Below are positions 11,864 through 20,426 of a stretch of 64,000 nt of DNA, one piece after another. Position 1 is the first letter of the stretch, and every line of letters starts with the position of its first letter. A program made the translations under genes and the position numbers. The stretch is taken from assembly GCA_016192135.1 (NCBI GenBank), contig JACPUR010000025.1, positions 11,561-75,560 of the forward strand, in the 5' to 3' direction. Under the pieces are notes generated by a model. That model was not told where the DNA came from and ran no database searches. It saw nothing but the letters and a program-made list of their open reading frames with translations. The stretch comes from Candidatus Tectomicrobia bacterium (lineage in GTDB: Bacteria > UBA8248).

Positions 11864-13015
11864 TCAGGCCTTCTTCCGGAGCTGGATGCGCTTGCCGGGG
11901 ACACCGCTCTGCCCAGCCTCCTCGCCAAGGCGGCGGAAGCGGATGAATTCGGCCACGATGGCGACGGCGATCTCGCCCGGCGTGTCGGCCCCGATCTCGA
12001 GGCCGATGGGCGCGTGGACCCGCCGGAGGAGCTCGTCCTGGTCGAAACCCTTGTCACGGAGGTGGCGGTAGGTGAGCAGCACCTTGCTCTTCGAGCCGAT
12101 CATGCCGATGTAGCGGGCGGGCGTCTTGAGCGCCCACTCGAGGACCACCTCGTCGTTCGCGTGCCCGCGCGTGATGATGGCCATGTAGTCCGACTCGTCC
12201 ACCGGGATCTTGCCGAAGACGGCCGGGAACTCGCCGACGTAGAAGGCCTCCGCCATCGGGAAGCGCTCCTGGTTGGCGAAGGTGGGCCGGTCCTCGACCA
12301 CGGCGACGCGGAAGCCCGCCAGGTGCACCGCCTGGGCCACGCAGAAAGAGACGTGCCCGCCGCCGAAGAGATAGACCAGCGGCTGGCCGGTGATGGGCTC
12401 CAGGAAGATTTCGGTGCCCTCGCCGGGCTGGCGGCGCCGCTTGCCGGTGCGCTCCTCCTCGCTCGCGAAGGTGAGCACGGAGGGCTGCCCGTTGCGGATG
12501 ACCTGGGAGCTCTCTCGCCAGAGCTCGGCCGAGTACTCGGGGATCTCGCCCCGCGCGCTCCCGTCCCGGCGGATGAGCTGCTTCCGCCGCCCGGCGGGCA
12601 GGTCGCCCAGGCGCCCCGGCTGGACCACGGTGGCGAGGGCGGCGCTGCCGCCCCGGCTCCGGATGTCGGCGATCTCGGCGAGCAGGGCGCTGTCGTACGC
12701 ATCGAAGGGCTCGACGAGAATGTCCACGACGCCGCCGCAGATGTGGCCGCTGTCCCCCGCCTGCTGGGCGGTGAGGTCGAACGTCAGCTTCTCGGGTCGG
12801 CCGCTCTCCATGATGTTCATGGCCGCCTGCCACACCTCGGCCTCGAGGCAGCCCCCGCCCACCGTCCCCACGGTGCTCCCGTCCTGGCGGACCAGCATCT
12901 TCGCATCCCCGCTCATGGGGGCCGACCCCTTGCGCGCCACCACGGTGGCCACGGCGCCGCGCTGCCCGGCCTTCTTGAGCTGGTACATCTCGCGGAAGAC
13001 GTCCTGCTGGCTCAT
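11864..13015 (-). CDS. XdhC/CoxI-family molybdenum hydroxylase maturation factor
   Basis: This 383-residue XdhC/CoxI protein has the N-terminal XdhC domain (RKGSAPMSGDAKM near 28-40, TVGGGCLEAEVW near 51-62) and a C-terminal Rossmann domain (YLFGGGHVSFCVAQAVHLAG). XdhC proteins bind the molybdenum cofactor, protect it during sulfuration and deliver it to xanthine dehydrogenase or CO dehydrogenase-like enzymes. Its place after yqeC, the VWA gene, the ATPase gene and yqeB supports a role in maturing a selenium- or sulfur-dependent molybdenum hydroxylase. Confidence 0.9.
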   Translation of the reverse strand: MSQQDVFREMYQLKKAGQRGAVATVVARKGSAPMSGDAKMLVRQDGSTVGTVGGGCLEAEVWQAAMNIMESGRPEKLTFDLTAQQAGDSGHICGGVVDILVEPFDAYDSALLAEIADIRSRGGSAALATVVQPGRLGDLPAGRRKQLIRRDGSARGEIPEYSAELWRESSQVIRNGQPSVLTFASEEERTGKRRRQPGEGTEIFLEPITGQPLVYLFGGGHVSFCVAQAVHLAGFRVAVVEDRPTFANQERFPMAEAFYVGEFPAVFGKIPVDESDYMAIITRGHANDEVVLEWALKTPARYIGMIGSKSKVLLTYRHLRDKGFDQDELLRRVHAPIGLEIGADTPGEIAVAIVAEFIRFRRLGEEAGQSGVPGKRIQLRKKA

Positions 13016-13052: not shown

Positions 13053-13865
13053 TCAGGCTGCGGGGAATTGATGAGTTATGCCCGGGCCGCCGCCGAGAGA
13101 AGCGCAGAGGATCCTCTCGATGGGACCACGGGGAGTGCCCGCAACGCTCCATATAATATAGGCGGTTTCCTTAAGTTTATCAAGATCCATCGCGTCCGCC
13201 TGGTTCAGCAGGACGAGCTTGCGCGCGCCCCTTGGCGCCCCCTTGAACAGCCCCTCCGGATGTCCCGCCAGCCGCCCGACCGCCTCGGCCGTGACGGGAG
13301 CTCCGGACGGGAGTCCCGTTATTTTCCTCAGCAAATCGGAGCGGAAAGCATGCGCCTCGTCCAGCGGCGCGCCCAGCGCCCGGAGCCCCACGACGCCGAC
13401 GACGGCCTCGGCCCAGGGGGGAATCACCGGCTCCTCCGGCCCCGGCGCCTTGATGGGGAGCCCACGGGCGCCGTCCGCCTCGATGAGGAGCACGCCCGCC
13501 CCTTCCCGTAGGGCCTCCAGCTCACCAGGGGCGAAACCGTCCAGCTTCATCCGGCGAAGGGAGGGCTCGCCCGGAACCGGCGCTTCACCCAGGCGGGCGC
13601 GGGCCAGGGTGAGGGGGCCGGAGTGCTCCCCGCTCCAGGCGCCGAGGGTCCGGGCGAGGGATGAAGCCTCGCCCAGCAAAAGGAGCGAGCCCTCCCCGGG
13701 CGCGAAGATCTTGGTGGTGGTGGTCAGGAGGGCGGGGCGCCAGCCGGCGGCGTGGCACTCGGCGGCCAAAGCTGCGAGGAGGCTCGTCTTCCCGCCCGCG
13801 CCCACCGCGGCCACGGCCTGGCCGCGCCGGAGGCCCAGGGCGCGGAGCAGCGGGCCTTCGCTCAC
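13053..13865 (-). CDS. yqeC: YqeC-type selenium/molybdenum hydroxylase maturation protein
   Basis: This 270-residue protein starts at a GTG that overlaps the stop of the VWA gene (GTGA). It has a P-loop close to the N-terminus (VGAGGKTSLL, 21-30), TTTTKIFAPG near 47-56, IEADGARGLPIKAP near 135-148 and a late LNQAD. This is the pattern of YqeC, an ATP-binding protein that occurs with selenium-dependent molybdenum hydroxylases and is thought to help mount the labile selenium on the cofactor. The open frame extends much further upstream inside the VWA gene, but only this part is conserved. Confidence 0.88.
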   Translation of the reverse strand: MSEGPLLRALGLRRGQAVAAVGAGGKTSLLAALAAECHAAGWRPALLTTTTKIFAPGEGSLLLLGEASSLARTLGAWSGEHSGPLTLARARLGEAPVPGEPSLRRMKLDGFAPGELEALREGAGVLLIEADGARGLPIKAPGPEEPVIPPWAEAVVGVVGLRALGAPLDEAHAFRSDLLRKITGLPSGAPVTAEAVGRLAGHPEGLFKGAPRGARKLVLLNQADAMDLDKLKETAYIIWSVAGTPRGPIERILCASLGGGPGITHQFPAA

Positions 13866-15634
13866 CAGGCGCCTTCCCGGCTGGCTCCAAGAAGCTCGCG
13901 GCGCAGGATGCGCACCAGCTCCTCGGAGAGCTGCGGAAGGTGCCGCACCACGATGTGGTTCGGGTAGATCTGCTCGACGAAGGGATCGACGACGCCCACC
14001 CCGACGACGCGGATGCCCAGCTTCTCCAGTCGGCTCACCGTCTCGATGAGGTGGCTCGCGTCGCCGTTCGGCTGGCCGTCCGAGGTGATGATGATGATCT
14101 TCTCGCGCTCGGGCCGGAGGAGGAGCCTGCGGTAGGCGAAGAGGAGATGCTCCTCGTCCCAGTTGTTGAAGCGCGGGTAGATGTTCACCATCCGGTGCTT
14201 GATGGGCAGGAAGTCCTCGTCGAAGGCCTTGTACACGCGGTGCTGGAGCGGCGAGTGCCGCATGTGGCGGAACTTGAAAGCGGGGATGTGGCCCAGCGCC
14301 GCGGCCATGGCCGCCTCGGAGCTCTCGGTCGAGTAGCCGATGACCTCGAAGGGCACCTTCAGGCGGTCGAGCACCTCGGCGAAGAAGATGGTGGCCTCGC
14401 GCGCGGCCAGGTACTTCGACTCGCGGTTCATGCTCCCGCTCTCGTCCACGAGCAGGGTGAAGCAGACGTCCAACCGCTCGGGGCTCTCGCGGCGCTGGAA
14501 GAGGCGGTAGCGCCCGAGCCGCTGCTTCCAGAGCTTGGGGGTGTTGAGCCGGCCCGAGCGGTGGGAGCCGCTGTAGCGGGTGTAGGTGCGCTCGCGGATG
14601 ATCTGCATGAGCTTCCAGGCCAGCACCTTGATCTGGCTGCCCGCGTTCTGGACGACCGCCTGGTACTCCTCGGGCTTCCCCTCGGGGGGGACGACGATGG
14701 TCCGCTCGTCGGGCAGGGCCGCCGTCGGGTGCACTTCCTTCTTGTGCCCCTTGAGCTCGAACCAGGGCGAGGCCCAGTGGCCGAGCTTGGCCAGCTCCTC
14801 CGGGGTGAGCTCCAAAGGCTCCCCCTCGGCCTCGATGGGCTCCGCCTGGAGCTCCTGGCTCTTGAGCTCGACGGCGTCGTCCTGCTCGCCCGCCGCGCCC
14901 TGCTCCTGGATCTTCTTGAGCACCTCCTCGGGGATGCCGGTGGCGGCCATCTCCTCGGCGGCCTGGGCCATCTCCTCCTCGGTCAGGAAGCCCCGCACGG
15001 CCTCGTAGATCTCCCGGGCCGCGCGGAAGGAATCCGCCGCGCTTCCGGCCCGGCAGGCGCCCTCCACGGCGGGGGCCGCCCCCCGCAGGAAGGCGGCGAC
15101 CTCGGGTTCGAACCATCCCGTGCGCAGGGCGCCCGGCCCGGAGGGGGCCGCTCCCGGCTCGAGGCCCACCCCGCGCAGGTAGAGTCCCCACTGGACCTCC
15201 AGGAAACGGGGGAGCTGGCCGGCGGCGAGCTGCCGCTCCGCCTCCTCCAGCGCGGGGCGGATGAAGGAGCGGAAGTTCTTGCGGGTTCCGGGGAGGGCGT
15301 CCGCCAGGCGGTTCTCGCAGCGGGCGTCCTCGAGCGCGTGCCAGACCTGGAAGAAGCCGGGGCGCGCCTGGTTCTCCCGCAGCGCGCGGGCGGCCCACTT
15401 GAGAGTGCCCTCGCGGCGGTGGGCCACCTCGATGAGGGTCATTCCCTTCTGGTAGCGGAGGACGCGGTCTTCCTCCAGATCTCCGCTGTTGAGGCGGGAG
15501 AGGGTGCGGACGGGATCCTCGATGTGGATGGTCCGCCCCTCCGGGCCGGAGCCCTCGCCGTAGCGCAGGGAGAGGTCGTAGTCGTGGGAGGCGATCTGGG
15601 CCAGGGCTTCGAGGCGGGCGCGGCGCCTTTCCAT
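13862..15634 (-). CDS. VWA-domain protein, CoxE/CobT/CbbO-like partner of the MoxR ATPase
   Basis: This 590-residue protein has a long N-terminal helical region, an acidic middle, and a C-terminal von Willebrand A domain. The metal-ion site starts with DESGSM at 397-402 and has TSDGQPNG near 517. The C-terminal part (RRLLLRPEREKIIIITSDG) resembles cobaltochelatase CobT and the CbbO/NorD group. Such proteins pair with a CbbQ/NirQ/CoxD ATPase to remodel a metalloenzyme; CoxD and CoxE of carbon monoxide dehydrogenase are the closest functional model. The gene starts 12 bases after the ATPase gene. Confidence 0.88.
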   Translation of the reverse strand: MERRRARLEALAQIASHDYDLSLRYGEGSGPEGRTIHIEDPVRTLSRLNSGDLEEDRVLRYQKGMTLIEVAHRREGTLKWAARALRENQARPGFFQVWHALEDARCENRLADALPGTRKNFRSFIRPALEEAERQLAAGQLPRFLEVQWGLYLRGVGLEPGAAPSGPGALRTGWFEPEVAAFLRGAAPAVEGACRAGSAADSFRAAREIYEAVRGFLTEEEMAQAAEEMAATGIPEEVLKKIQEQGAAGEQDDAVELKSQELQAEPIEAEGEPLELTPEELAKLGHWASPWFELKGHKKEVHPTAALPDERTIVVPPEGKPEEYQAVVQNAGSQIKVLAWKLMQIIRERTYTRYSGSHRSGRLNTPKLWKQRLGRYRLFQRRESPERLDVCFTLLVDESGSMNRESKYLAAREATIFFAEVLDRLKVPFEVIGYSTESSEAAMAAALGHIPAFKFRHMRHSPLQHRVYKAFDEDFLPIKHRMVNIYPRFNNWDEEHLLFAYRRLLLRPEREKIIIITSDGQPNGDASHLIETVSRLEKLGIRVVGVGVVDPFVEQIYPNHIVVRHLPQLSEELVRILRRELLGASREGAW

Positions 15635-15646
15635 GGCGGCCCCCTG

Positions 15647-16531
15647 CTAGAAGTGGTTGTCCACGATGTCCTCGAGCACCTTCGCGTCGAAGGGGTTCAC
15701 CTTGCTGAAGACGGTCGAGGCGGCGGCCTCCATGGGGTCGAACTGGGCGGCCATCCGCGCCCAGTCGATGAGCCGGCGGGTGCTGAAGGTACAGAAGATC
15801 TTCTCGTTCCGCATGGCCTCGCGCGCGTCATGCGCCACGCGCACCATCCGCTCGACCAATGCGCGGTCCTCGTTGCCGCTCTGGCGCATGACCACCTTGA
15901 TCTCCACCTCGAGGGGGAGATACTCCATCCGGATGGTGACCGGGAAGCGATCGAGGAGGGCCTCGTTCAAGGGCTTCGTGCCGCCGTAGCGCCGGTCCTC
16001 GTGCGGGTTCATGCTGGCGAAGAGCCGGAAGCCCGGGTTCGGGTGCACGATGCGGCCATCGTACTCGGAGAGCACGATCATCCGGTCGTCGTCGAGGAGG
16101 CTGTGGAGGCAGAAGGCGATCTCGGGCAGGCAGGCGTTGATCTCGTCGATCAGCAGCCAGTCGCCCGCCTCCATCGCCTCGATCAGGATGCCGTTCACCC
16201 AGTAGGTGCCCCGCTCGTTGATCATGAGCTTGCCCACGAACTCGTCCACCGTGGTCATCCCGTTCAGGTTGACCCGGCGGAAGCCGTTGTTCGTGACGTG
16301 GGCCAGGTGGCGCACGGCGAGGGTCTTGCCCACGCCGGTTTCCCCGATGAGGAGGACGGGCAGGTTCTGGCCCACGGCCCAGGCGATGCGCTCAAGGGAG
16401 TCGCCCGCGGGCAGGTAGAACTGCGGGGCGGGGAGGAACGGGTTGTCCTTGTGGGGGTTGATCGGAATGGCGCTCCGGCCGACCCGGTAGGTACCGTTCT
16501 CGACGGTTTCGGTGAGGATGCCGACGCTCAA
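15647..16531 (-). CDS. MoxR-type AAA+ ATPase, CbbQ/NirQ/CoxD-like
   Basis: This 294-residue ATPase has Walker A GETGVGKT at 63-70, Walker B WLLIDE at 115-120, and the MoxR-like sensor stretch FASMNPHEDRRYGGT. The family remodels partly folded metalloenzymes, usually with a VWA protein encoded next door, as here. I choose the TTG at 16531, which overlaps the stop of yqeB (TTGA) and has GGAG eight bases upstream. The longer frame would reach into yqeB and lacks conservation. Its position suggests metal or chalcogen insertion into a molybdenum hydroxylase. Confidence 0.87.
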   Translation of the reverse strand: MSVGILTETVENGTYRVGRSAIPINPHKDNPFLPAPQFYLPAGDSLERIAWAVGQNLPVLLIGETGVGKTLAVRHLAHVTNNGFRRVNLNGMTTVDEFVGKLMINERGTYWVNGILIEAMEAGDWLLIDEINACLPEIAFCLHSLLDDDRMIVLSEYDGRIVHPNPGFRLFASMNPHEDRRYGGTKPLNEALLDRFPVTIRMEYLPLEVEIKVVMRQSGNEDRALVERMVRVAHDAREAMRNEKIFCTFSTRRLIDWARMAAQFDPMEAAASTVFSKVNPFDAKVLEDIVDNHF

Positions 16532-17382
16532 TGGGCTCGCTCCACGGTGGAATGTACGCCGAACAGGAACATCATGATGGCCTCGAGGACGCCGCCGGCG
16601 ACCGCCCGCGATTTGTCCGAGATGGTGAAGCAATGGGCGGGCTTGGCGCGGGGATCGACGTCCCCCACCTTGAAGCCCTCGGTCACCTCCAGTCCCTCGC
16701 GGACGAGGCCCCGCAGGACGCCCGCGATCTGGGCCCTCACCTCCCGCCCCGCGACGAGCCCCACCGGCTGGCCCTTCTCGACGCGGTCGCCAATCCGGCA
16801 GATAGGCTCGAAGCGGCCCCGGGCGGGGGAGCGCAGCAGGCGCTCAGTGGTGTAGCCCCCGATGTCGCCGGGCACCCCGGTGTTGGGCTCGGCCGGGCCG
16901 CTCAGGATCACCCGCCCGATGTCGTGCCCGCGCGCCGTCTCGATCACCGCGTGCGCGTCCTCGCCGGCCGAGAATCCCGGGCCGAGGGCCACGACCACCC
17001 CGGCCTGGTCCATCCGGGTGCCGAGGTTTCTCTTCGCGAGGATGGCGTCCACCAGGGCGGCCGGGCGGGCGAGGGAAACGATGGCGGCCTCCGGGTCCAC
17101 CACCACGGGCACCACCCCCTCCGCCAGGAGGGCGCGGGCCGCGGCGAGCTTCTCTCCGGGGGTGCCGCCCTTCGCGGGCCGGGCCTCGACTCCCTCGACC
17201 TCAATGCGGCCCGAATAGAGGCACTCCGCGAAAGCCACTGTGCGCCGCACCATGGTCGGGTTCTCCACCTCGGTCACAATGACCGGGAAACCGGCCCGGA
17301 AGAGGCGGTGGGCGGTGCCGGTGGCGAGGTCGCCTCCCCCCTTCACGACGACGAGGGAGCCGGCGACCGAACGTTTCTGCAC
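16528..17382 (-). CDS. yqeB: YqeB-type selenium-dependent molybdenum hydroxylase system protein (EF2563 family)
   Basis: This 284-residue protein starts with VVVKGGGDLATGTAHRLFRAGF, a nucleotide-binding-like motif typical of YqeB, followed by VTEVENPTMVRRTVAF and later ILSGPAEPNTGVPGDIGGY. YqeB occurs almost only in genomes that use selenium as a molybdenum hydroxylase cofactor, together with YqeC. The start is GTG. It directly precedes the ATPase gene with a 4-base overlap and follows the UGSC partner gene after 59 bases, linking the selenoprotein pair to cofactor maturation. Confidence 0.9.
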   Translation of the reverse strand: MQKRSVAGSLVVVKGGGDLATGTAHRLFRAGFPVIVTEVENPTMVRRTVAFAECLYSGRIEVEGVEARPAKGGTPGEKLAAARALLAEGVVPVVVDPEAAIVSLARPAALVDAILAKRNLGTRMDQAGVVVALGPGFSAGEDAHAVIETARGHDIGRVILSGPAEPNTGVPGDIGGYTTERLLRSPARGRFEPICRIGDRVEKGQPVGLVAGREVRAQIAGVLRGLVREGLEVTEGFKVGDVDPRAKPAHCFTISDKSRAVAGGVLEAIMMFLFGVHSTVERAH

Positions 17383-17441: not shown

Positions 17442-18524
17442 TCAACGCTCAGGCGACCCGGCGGGGCGCCCGACGGGGACCGTCACGGCGCGCGTGGGGC
17501 CGAAGGTGGGCAGGTAGGCGGAGTGTTTGCCCGCCCCCCCGGCCACCACCACGAGGATGTCCCCGGGCCGGTCCACGAGCGGGATGAGGGCGGCGTTGTC
17601 CCCGGCCCGGGCCTCGAGCTCCGGGGGCCAGTCCCGCATCCCCCACATGCCCCCCCGGCGGAGTTCCCGGACGCTCTTGCGCGCCCGCTCGTGCAGGGCG
17701 CGCCGCGCGTCCGCCTTGGAGAGGCCTCCGCCGGCCAGGGTGTCCGCGTGCTCGGGGCCCAGGACGACCATCACCTCCCCCCGCAGGTAAAAGTTGTTGC
17801 TCCCCATGACCGCCATGGTGTCCGCGATGGTGGCGAGCAGGCCCTCGGCGTCGTGGCTCACGTGGTCGTTCACGTTGTGCGGGCCCTCCGCCGCGATGAG
17901 GGTGACGGCGCTCTCGTCCCGCGCGAAGCCGCGCTCGGCGTGGAAGGGGGGCCAGGGGCTCTCGGCCTCGTTCTCGGCGATGCAGAAGGCGTACTTCGCC
18001 GGGGAGCCCTGAGTGGAGCGGTCGAGGACGCCCGGGATTGCCCCTCCGGCGTGCAGGAGCACCAGCCGGAGCGCCCGGCCGATGGTGGCGTTCGCGCGGC
18101 GCCCGGGGCCGAAGCAGCCGCTGCCTCCGTTGATCTCCAGCTCCCCGGCGATGGGGCCGTTCACGAGGATGAGGGGAGCGGCGGGGTGGGTGGTCGCCTG
18201 GATGGCGTGGAGCGAGAAGGCCGGGTCGAGCGCGGCCCGGACGGCGGCGGCCAGGACGGGCATGTAGGCCGGGAGGCAGCCCGCCATGACGGCGTTGACC
18301 GCCAGGGTTTCGGCCGTCACCACCCCCTGCCTGGGGGGCATGACGCCCAGCTCGGTTCCCGGGGGGAGGCCCAGGCCCCCGAGCATCTTCTCCACGCGGT
18401 CCGGGGTGGGGGGCACGACGGGGAGCCCGTCCCCCCAGCCCCGCGCCTCGAACAGGCGGAGGATGCCCTCCGGGGTGTCCGGCACCCGGAGGCGCTCGCT
18501 CAGGAGAGGCGCCGGATCGGTCAA
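17442..18524 (-). CDS. Conserved protein of unknown function paired with the UGSC selenoprotein
   Basis: This 360-residue protein is of unknown function. Conspicuous stretches are ARGWGDGLPVVPPTPDRV near the N-terminus, PPRQGVVTAETLAVNAVMAGC, LVNGPIAGELEINGGSGCFG and GVLDRSTQGSPAKYAFCIAENEAESPWPPF. It has several cysteines (CLPAY, GSGCFG) but no known active-site signature, no signal peptide and no membrane segment. The TTG start lies 10 bases after the selenoprotein gene, and the start is uncertain because no clear ribosome site is seen. The tight spacing suggests the two proteins act together. I recall similar proteins beside UGSC genes in uncultured bacteria but cannot check that here. Confidence 0.7.
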   Translation of the reverse strand: MTDPAPLLSERLRVPDTPEGILRLFEARGWGDGLPVVPPTPDRVEKMLGGLGLPPGTELGVMPPRQGVVTAETLAVNAVMAGCLPAYMPVLAAAVRAALDPAFSLHAIQATTHPAAPLILVNGPIAGELEINGGSGCFGPGRRANATIGRALRLVLLHAGGAIPGVLDRSTQGSPAKYAFCIAENEAESPWPPFHAERGFARDESAVTLIAAEGPHNVNDHVSHDAEGLLATIADTMAVMGSNNFYLRGEVMVVLGPEHADTLAGGGLSKADARRALHERARKSVRELRRGGMWGMRDWPPELEARAGDNAALIPLVDRPGDILVVVAGGAGKHSAYLPTFGPTRAVTVPVGRPAGSPER

Positions 18525-18534
18525 AGGCGGGGGC

Positions 18535-19140
18535 TCAGGCGAAGAGCGGCTTGTGCTGGACGACGCGCCGGGGCGGGAGGTAGACCCGCTCGCGGTACTC
18601 GCGCCGGAGGGTTTCGGCGTCGGCGGTGAGGGCGCGGAGGGCCTCCCCGGCGGCGCCGTCCCCCATGGCGCGCGCGGCCTCGGGCGGGATGCCCCCGACC
18701 GGGTGGGGCACCACCACGATGGGGAGCCCCGGCATCCCGAGCGCCTGGCGCTCGCTGGCGCCCAGGGCGGCGAAGACGCTCGAGCAGAAGGTGACCGTCG
18801 GCACCCCCGCCCTCTCCAGCCTCACCGAGTCGTGGACACTCCACGACGTGCAGCTCCCTCAGTCCCCCACCGCGTTGGCCACGACATCCACCTGGGGGAT
18901 GAACTCCTCGATGCGGCTCTCCGGGAGGGTGGGGTTCTCCTTGCGCCACCAGACGGGGGTGATTCCGGCCCGCTCGCCCAGGAGCTCCGCGACCCGGGCC
19001 AGTAGGGCGTCCCCGTTCGGCTTGTTGTTGTGCAGGAGCCCCAGGCGCAAGCCGCCGAGACTCGCCGGGCGCGGAGCGAGGGGGTGATCCTCCGCCCGTA
19101 CCGCGCCGAGGGGGGAGAGGATCTCGATGGTGCGGCTCAT
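18535..19140 (-). CDS. UGSC-family selenoprotein (in-frame TGA read as selenocysteine)
   Basis: Read through one TGA (18859-18861), this is a single frame of 201 residues: 93 residues ending VANAVGD, then selenocysteine at 94 followed by GSCTSWSVHDS, running to a TGA stop at 18535. The U-G-S-C motif defines the UGSC (seleno)protein family, of unknown but probably redox function, U94 and C97 forming a CxxC-like pair. Evidence that the TGA is not a disabling mutation: the frame, composition and conserved-looking residues continue on both sides, and a SECIS-like hairpin follows. Most pipelines would split it into two short hypothetical proteins. GAGG lies eight bases before ATG 19140. selA, selB, selC and selD are not in the window. 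Confidence 0.88.
18829..18847 (-). promoter_or_regulatory. Bacterial SECIS element of the UGSC selenoprotein gene
   Basis: On the coding strand, 11 bases after the TGA, GTCGTGG pairs perfectly with CCACGAC around a five-base loop AGTGT. The loop begins 19 bases after the TGA and has a G in its second position. Known bacterial SECIS hairpins have a loop 16-37 bases after UGA and a G among its first two bases, so this one fits. SelB would bind it to direct selenocysteine insertion. Confidence 0.82.
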
Positions 19141-19168: not shown

Positions 19169-20341
19169 TCACAGCCCCAGCAGGTTGCGGGCGATGATGA
19201 GGCGCTGGATCTGGCTCGTCCCCTCGACGATCTGGATCTGCTTGGCGTCGCGCATGAAGCGCTCGAGGGGATGATCCTTCATGTAGCCAGCCCCGCCCAG
19301 CACCTGGATGGCGTCGATGGCCACCTTCATGGCCATGTCGGCGGCGTAGGTCTTGGCGGCGGAGAAGTAGTGGGCGTTCTCCCGGGTGTAGAGCCCGGCG
19401 TCCACGAGGGAGGCGCCCCGGTAGACGAGCAGGCGGGCGGCCTCGATCTCGATGAACATGTCGGCCAGCATGAACTGGACGGCCTGGAAGTTGGCGATGG
19501 GCTGGCCGAAGGCCTCGCGCTCCTTGGCGTAGTTGGAGGCGTAGTCCAGGCAGCCCTGGGCGAGGCCCACGGCGCGCGCCCCGATGGCGGGCCGCATCTG
19601 GTTGAAGCCCATCATGGCGCTGCGGAAGCCCTTGTTGAGTTCCCCGACTTGATTTTCCAGCGGCACCTCCACGTTCTCGAAGTGGAGGAGGCAGGTGGAG
19701 AAGCCCTTCATACCCATCTTGCGCTCGAAGCGGCCGATGCTGAAGCCGGGCGCACCCTTGGGGACGATGAAGTAGGTGATGCCCCGGGTGCCGGCCTCCG
19801 GGTCGGTCTTGGCGGCCACGAGGATGAAGTCGGCCTTGTCGGGCCCCGTGATAAAGCACTTGGTGCCGTTGATGACCCAGCGGTCCCCGCGCCGCTCGGC
19901 CCGGGTGCGGATGTTGCCCGCGTCCGAGCCGGCGTGGGGCTCGGTCAGGGCGTAGGAGCCCCTGAGCTCGCCCTTGGCCAGGCCGGTCAGGTAATGCCTG
20001 CGCTGGGCCTCGGTGCCGCTCAGGTGGATGACCCGGCTCGAGAGCATGTTCAGGACGATGAAGAGGGGGCAATTCGAGCAGAAGCGGGCGATCTCCTCGA
20101 TGGTGATGCACCCGCCCATGAATCCCATCCCGGCCCCGCCGTACTCCTCCGGCAGGAAGACGCCCAGGAGCTGCTGCCGCTTGAGGACCTCGAAGATGTC
20201 CTCGGGGTATTCCTCCCTCTCGTCGATCTCGGCGGCCCGGGGGGCCACGTGGCGCCCGGCCAGCGCCCGCACCGTCTGGCGCAGCATCTTCTGAGACTCG
20301 TTCAGGTCGAACTGCAGGTCGGTCTCGGCCTGGATGCTCAT
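19169..20341 (-). CDS. Acyl-CoA dehydrogenase
   Basis: This 390-residue FAD-dependent acyl-CoA dehydrogenase has LTEPHAGSDAGNIRTRA and ITGPDKADFILVAAKT in the middle domain, GFNQMRPAIGARAVG and EREAFGQPIANFQ in the helical C-terminal domain, and IVEGTSQIQRLIIAR near the end. The Glu of VEGTSQIQ is in the place of the catalytic base in the MCAD/SCAD group. It oxidises the alpha-beta bond of an acyl-CoA and passes electrons to ETF. ATG 20341 follows GGAG; the longer frame to 20398 would start inside the likely promoter. It is the first gene of the minus-strand operon, 28 bases before the selenoprotein. Confidence 0.9.
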   Translation of the reverse strand: MSIQAETDLQFDLNESQKMLRQTVRALAGRHVAPRAAEIDEREEYPEDIFEVLKRQQLLGVFLPEEYGGAGMGFMGGCITIEEIARFCSNCPLFIVLNMLSSRVIHLSGTEAQRRHYLTGLAKGELRGSYALTEPHAGSDAGNIRTRAERRGDRWVINGTKCFITGPDKADFILVAAKTDPEAGTRGITYFIVPKGAPGFSIGRFERKMGMKGFSTCLLHFENVEVPLENQVGELNKGFRSAMMGFNQMRPAIGARAVGLAQGCLDYASNYAKEREAFGQPIANFQAVQFMLADMFIEIEAARLLVYRGASLVDAGLYTRENAHYFSAAKTYAADMAMKVAIDAIQVLGGAGYMKDHPLERFMRDAKQIQIVEGTSQIQRLIIARNLLGL

Positions 20342-20396
20342 GGAGAAGCGCTCCGGCGCGGGAAAAGAAAAAAGGCCAAAATGAAGGACAAGCCGC

Positions 20397-20426
20397 ATGA
20401 TCTCCTCCGGCGCGGCGGCCTGTCAA
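20397..20426 (-). promoter_or_regulatory. Candidate sigma-70 promoter of the acyl-CoA dehydrogenase/selenoprotein operon
   Basis: On the minus strand a perfect -35 hexamer TTGACA (20426-20421) is followed after 18 bases by GATCAT as -10. It would give a leader of about 50 bases before ATG 20341. The -10 box is only a fair match. Confidence 0.4.

Follow-up and report, generated by a model that had tools for sequence, protein, structure and literature searches.

A UGSC-family selenoprotein and its neighbouring partner protein as candidate subunits of a selenoenzyme in a Candidatus Tectomicrobia bacterium

The UGSC gene and its operon

The window analysed here is a stretch of 64,000 nucleotides from the genome of a Candidatus Tectomicrobia bacterium (G000; 3.92 Mb in 41 contigs, 96.8% complete). 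Between 11.9 and 20.4 kb it holds an operon, all on the minus strand, in which XdhC, YqeC, VWA, MoxR, YqeB, a partner protein, UGSC and an acyl-CoA dehydrogenase lie in this order (Table 1). The UGSC gene opens with an ATG at 19140 and runs as a single frame of 93 residues, Sec and 107 further residues, with an in-frame TGA at codon 94, and it is closed by a second TGA that ends at 18535. The first-pass annotation had taken two minus-strand frames of 93 and 107 residues as one frame split by TGA, which is exact in the sequence, and had assigned the read-through motif VGD-Sec-GSC-TSW to the UGSC family. The motif reads VGD-U-GSC-TSWSVHD, and the assignment is borne out by the family profiles: the 201-aa product matches PF24696 (Pfam UGSC) with E=7.5e-50 and 169.8 bits against a cut-off of 25, and NF041046 (NCBIfam UGSC family (seleno)protein) with 133.6 bits against a cut-off of 125. 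It was also expected that standard annotation would miss this protein. This holds for generic gene callers, which split the gene, but not for NCBI, which has NF041046 as a dedicated model. The gene itself is one further member of the known UGSC family and ordinary in kind; it shares with PF24696/NF041046 the UGSC motif, the Sec/Cys position and the length, with no essential difference. The functions of the UGSC family are still listed among the largely uncharacterized ones in a 2026 review (PMC13188914).

Table 1. Features of the UGSC operon, in coordinates of the window
Feature	Position	Strand	Basis
UGSC-family selenoprotein gene, 201 aa, Sec94	18535..19140	-	PF24696 and NF041046 matches
TGA codon for Sec94	18859..18861	-	same codon TGA in L023, L024, L116; a single exception among full-length homologues
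SECIS-type hairpin	18829..18847	-	sequence, family covariation, published SECIS constraints
Partner protein, 360 aa, TTG start	17442..18524	-	no Pfam/NCBIfam family; adjoins UGSC
Acyl-CoA dehydrogenase, upstream of UGSC, same operon	19169..20398	-	order kept in G001, G003
YqeB, selenium-dependent molybdenum cofactor biosynthesis	16528..17382	-	TIGR03309 E=3.2e-106; conserved position
MoxR-type AAA ATPase (AAA_5)	15647..16633	-	profile match, conserved order
VWA (CobT_C) protein	13862..15634	-	profile match, conserved order
YqeC, selenium cofactor biosynthesis	13053..13877	-	TIGR03172 E=4.8e-47; conserved order
XdhC-family maturation factor	11864..13015	-	NF045664 305.9 bits, below cut-off 350

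How widely is this gene found? UGSC was detected in 36 of the 386 genomes searched, including genomes of other families, and in all 18 genomes of the phylum that were searched, with up to 8 copies per genome. A scan of viral contigs gave no relatives of the UGSC protein. The operon is complete in G003, where there is an additional acyl-CoA dehydrogenase, and in G001 it is conserved up to the contig end. Its XdhC-family factor probably serves a molybdenum aldehyde oxidoreductase, and the MoxR-type ATPase together with the VWA protein (13862-16633), standing in a molybdenum-hydroxylase/selenium operon, is what we take to be reminiscent of CoxD/CoxE-type maturation. YqeB and YqeC had been pointed out by the first-pass annotation as selenium-linked. 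Both of these markers of molybdenum hydroxylase maturation are indeed present, but they concern the operon neighbours and not the UGSC protein. Since they belong to selenium-dependent molybdenum hydroxylases, described as a separate selenium trait in PMC2276186, they lend weak support for Sec as such and serve as context.

There is a further question of concern here, namely whether UGSC and its partner act as accessories to this selenium-dependent molybdenum hydroxylase system or help in its maturation, as sharing an operon with XdhC, YqeB, YqeC, MoxR and VWA, in a gene order kept in G001 and G003, might suggest. Yet the operon association is for this copy only, while a genome may hold as many as 8, and the readable neighbours look different, as judged by eye, in the few other UGSC regions with ORFs listed; the wider gene context rests on few loci, and in these GC-rich genomes wrong-frame ORFs drowned out the ORF clustering. 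A maturation role of this kind appears improbable.

Selenocysteine codon, hairpin and decoding machinery

Is the TGA at codon 94 a sense codon? The same codon is TGA in orthologues from the same genus or the same family (L023, L024 and L116), and comparisons with these three show that coding constraint is alike on the 5' and 3' sides of the TGA. The UGSC loci of the same-genus genomes are L023/L060 and L024/L063. Residue 94 had been singled out in the first-pass annotation as the site where homologues should be compared for Sec or Cys. Among the full-length matches from the 36 positive genomes, each has exactly one in-frame TGA, with one exception (L137 in G288), which reads CGLC and has Cys at the Sec site. 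The Sec column is invariant in an alignment of 36 UGSC rows. The second Cys is not an absolute requirement, as a few divergent members (L070, L082 and L110) have the motif UGSS.

Downstream of the TGA, 11 nt (GGGAGCUGCAC) lead to the hairpin GUCGUGG-AGUGU-CCACGAC, with a perfect stem of 7 bp, a loop of 5 nt and G at loop position 2, all exactly as the first-pass annotation had described it. The distance from UGA to the loop is 18 nt and the MFE is -14.8 kcal/mol; an A-U pair is able to close the loop, which would give a stem of 8 bp and the loop GUG. For bacterial SECIS elements the published rules are a loop of 3-9 nt, a stem of 4-16 bp, 16-37 nt from UGA, G within the first two loop positions and an MFE of at most -7.5 kcal/mol (PMC13188914), and the hairpin satisfies all of them. 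Taken by itself it is unremarkable in single-sequence folding, with a z-score of -1.05, and when the peptide is recoded with synonymous codons, a stem of at least 8 bp arises in about 4% of cases. Single-hairpin statistics were dropped as proof of SECIS, since this z-score is not significant.

It is the family-level evidence that puts the hairpin beyond chance, with the TGA kept and the hairpin kept through compensatory synonymous changes. The stem scores of 104 distinct homologues were set against synonymous-codon controls; the score is above the synonymous null mean in 104 of 104, and 51 of them are, one by one, at P up to 0.05. At the two codons flanking the loop, the third bases pair in 103 of the 104 homologues, which are related sequences, so that these counts are not independent events. 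In our gene these codons are Trp99 and Val101; protein numbering puts them at +6 and +8, counted from the Sec codon (+5 and +7 zero-based). TGG (Trp) is partnered by codons ending in C or T, for example GTC and ATC, and TGC (Cys), GCC, GGC, AGC and TAC are partnered by codons ending in G, for example GTG and ATG. The switch is seen in several amino-acid contexts, and protein selection alone leaves it unexplained that a Val codon takes C as its last base next to Trp and G next to Cys. In a small clade (L061, L074, L100 and L107) the hairpin is shifted. The hairpin is thus conserved among the homologues, as would be expected if the first reading of it was right.

Can the organism decode such a codon? 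Of the four genes selA, selB, selC and selD, which the first-pass annotation had named as companions to look for, the first three are present in G000: tRNA-Sec with a UCA anticodon at 74.8 bits, selB at 389 bits and selA at 540 bits, the last two side by side. The genome also has a second UGSC gene, again containing TGA. But selD was not found in the assembly; no match was over the cut-off, and the best one is a ThiL-like protein, a label that is our reading from the neighbouring ThiE-like frame. A TGA-containing selD over the cut-off occurs in 10 of 12 same-family relatives searched, both same-genus genomes included, and the other two (G010 and G013) gave no selD over the cut-off. The 12-kb contig that carries selD in G001 has just short, low-identity matches in G000, with no orthologous match; the proteins of the UGSC operon are 79-94% identical between these two genomes. 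Because the whole surrounding block is absent, an assembly gap fits better than a targeted loss of selD, with a deletion as the possible alternative.

The missing selD might also be explained if the TGA were a real stop, by way of a frameshift, a sequencing error or a pseudogene, or if it were reassigned in this organism. Such an explanation agrees poorly with the orthologues, where TGA stands at the same codon and the constraint is alike on both sides, with its retention across genomes of other families and with the presence of tRNA-Sec, selA and selB. What is more, TGA is also a plain stop here, as it terminates the acyl-CoA dehydrogenase gene and the UGSC gene itself. We regard a real stop or a reassignment as extremely improbable. 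That the locus encodes a true UGSC-family selenoprotein is practically certain, and we infer that Sec is actually inserted at this codon.

Two other observations on G000 may be recorded. Three further GrdB/PrdB-like frames have one in-frame TGA each (C23:98919-99485, C30:61056-61496 and C21:4383-4877, which are loci L184, L185 and L186) and are probably more selenoproteins of this genome. A dispersed repeat of about 70 bp, REP-type-like, was found at L177:249-320 and in more than 20 places of G000, with matches on both strands.

The partner protein

For the partner protein, searches of Pfam and NCBIfam gave no family over threshold, and a PDB sequence search with the UGSC and partner profiles gave no matches. 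Is it more than a chance neighbour? Of 112 distinct UGSC genes, 101 have a relative of the partner on the same strand within the fetched stretch, less than 150 nt away in 88, and in several loci it is fused to the C-terminus of UGSC. A fusion of UGSC with a domain called 'Unknown_1' is reported in PMC2398784, and Unknown_1 as described there is probably the same domain as the partner. In a separate search, all 27 partner-positive genomes were also UGSC-positive. Across 82 adjacent pairs, the distance matrices of UGSC and partner show a correlation of r=0.925, with a permutation maximum of 0.157, and one of r=0.66 among distant pairs alone; shared species and paralogue history account for part of it. 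The invariant residues of the partner include Cys83 in an AGC motif, the sole invariant Cys. It is very probable that UGSC and the partner work as one enzyme, presumably as a physical complex.

Some arrangements of the two genes are less simple. Five loci (L071, L084, L106, L109 and L114) have UGSC-partner fusions with the motif UGGC, and in each of them a further partner gene stands separately after the fusion. For a UGSC subgroup with the motif LGGUGSCTLC, to which the second G000 copy belongs, the nearest partner genes are several kb off, in tandem arrays. In G000 the second UGSC gene has such an array at a distance of about 5 kb, made up of three partner-family genes in tandem (C19:121793-125321), and comparable arrays are found in G016, G010, G015 and G017.

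The predicted model of the partner has a pLDDT of 86. Foldseek with this model gave 21 matches under E 1e-3, all annotated as fumarate hydratases, with E about 1e-5. The partner was not accepted as a homologue of class I fumarase, the VIA-align Z being about 4 and the rmsd about 6; what the two share is the Foldseek structural matches, from which similarity is not established. With one invariant Cys, the partner has no sign of the Fe-S cluster ligands, which sets it apart from class I fumarate hydratase.

Relation to GrdB and PrdB and a possible mechanism

Where does the UGSC protein belong among selenoproteins? Of 36 UGSC members, 19 match the GrdB model TIGR01917 weakly (best 1.2e-5), and a GrdB found in this analysis matches NF041046 at 5.5e-7 over the same region. 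A profile comparison of UGSC with GrdB gave a probability of 95.9% and E 5e-9, with Sec aligned to Sec. By the cut-offs of TIGR01917, TIGR01918 and TIGR04483 the 201-aa protein falls outside GrdB and PrdB, scoring 20.2 bits for TIGR01917 (cut-off 602) and 18.9 bits for TIGR01918 (cut-off 65). The Sec region of UGSC is homologous to the Sec domain of GrdB and PrdB, yet the protein is not a member of either family. In an AlphaFold2 model of a natural UGSC-partner fusion (pLDDT 82, pTM 0.82) the Sec domain is alternating beta/alpha, with Sec108 just ahead of a helix that starts at residue 109, and the structure matches are generic flavodoxin/Rossmann-like folds, not thioredoxin. The fold so predicted is contrary to the thioredoxin-like one suggested in PMC2398784.

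The thioredoxin view, which is also that of the selenoprotein literature, has some attraction, as the UxxC motif would suit a thioredoxin- or peroxiredoxin-type thiol/selenol oxidoreductase in which U and C form a selenenyl-sulphide pair. It agrees less well with the predicted flavodoxin/Rossmann-like fold, with the homology to GrdB/PrdB, with the existence of UGSS variants and with the tight pairing with a large partner, and we consider it unlikely, though less so than a maturation role.

We lean instead towards UGSC as the Sec subunit of a two-protein reductase, with the 360-aa partner as the second protein and GrdB-like selenolate chemistry. How might such an enzyme work? SelB and tRNA-Sec would read UGA codon 94 as Sec under the direction of the hairpin that follows after 11 nt. 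The UGSC product would then be the Sec-bearing subunit and the 17442-18524 protein the other subunit of the complex. Judging from the homologous domain in GrdB/PrdB, Sec would stand at the start of a helix after a beta-strand and may be the selenolate nucleophile, and the Cys three positions after it would be the resolving thiol. The partner would bind a small organic substrate, which the enzyme may cleave reductively or reduce. What Sec does in GrdB and PrdB is established knowledge; whether UGSC would share their kind of chemistry is, by this analogy, evenly balanced.

The constant partner, the Sec-domain homology to GrdB/PrdB and the lineage-wide expansion of paralogues make this orphan selenoprotein open to testing as an enzyme of two subunits, and the same evidence argues against classing UGSC with the thioredoxins. 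More tentatively, and with slightly less than even confidence, UGSC and its partner of about 360 aa could represent a previously unrecognised two-component Sec enzyme family, distantly related to glycine and proline reductases through the Sec domain, with a different substrate-binding subunit, and diversified for different substrates by paralogy (as many as 8 copies in one genome).

UGSC is without the N-terminal half of GrdB and far below the GrdB/PrdB cut-offs. The partner gave nothing in profile comparison with GrdB and with the one GrdE fragment sampled, so that chemistry of the GrdB kind would call for another type of subunit to bind the substrate. What UGSC has in common with GrdB/GrdF/GrdH, the selenoprotein B of glycine, sarcosine and betaine reductase, and with PrdB of D-proline reductase is the strand followed by UG(S/T)C at the helix start, the motif E-(R/K)-AG(I/V/L)P and profile matches that are reciprocal.
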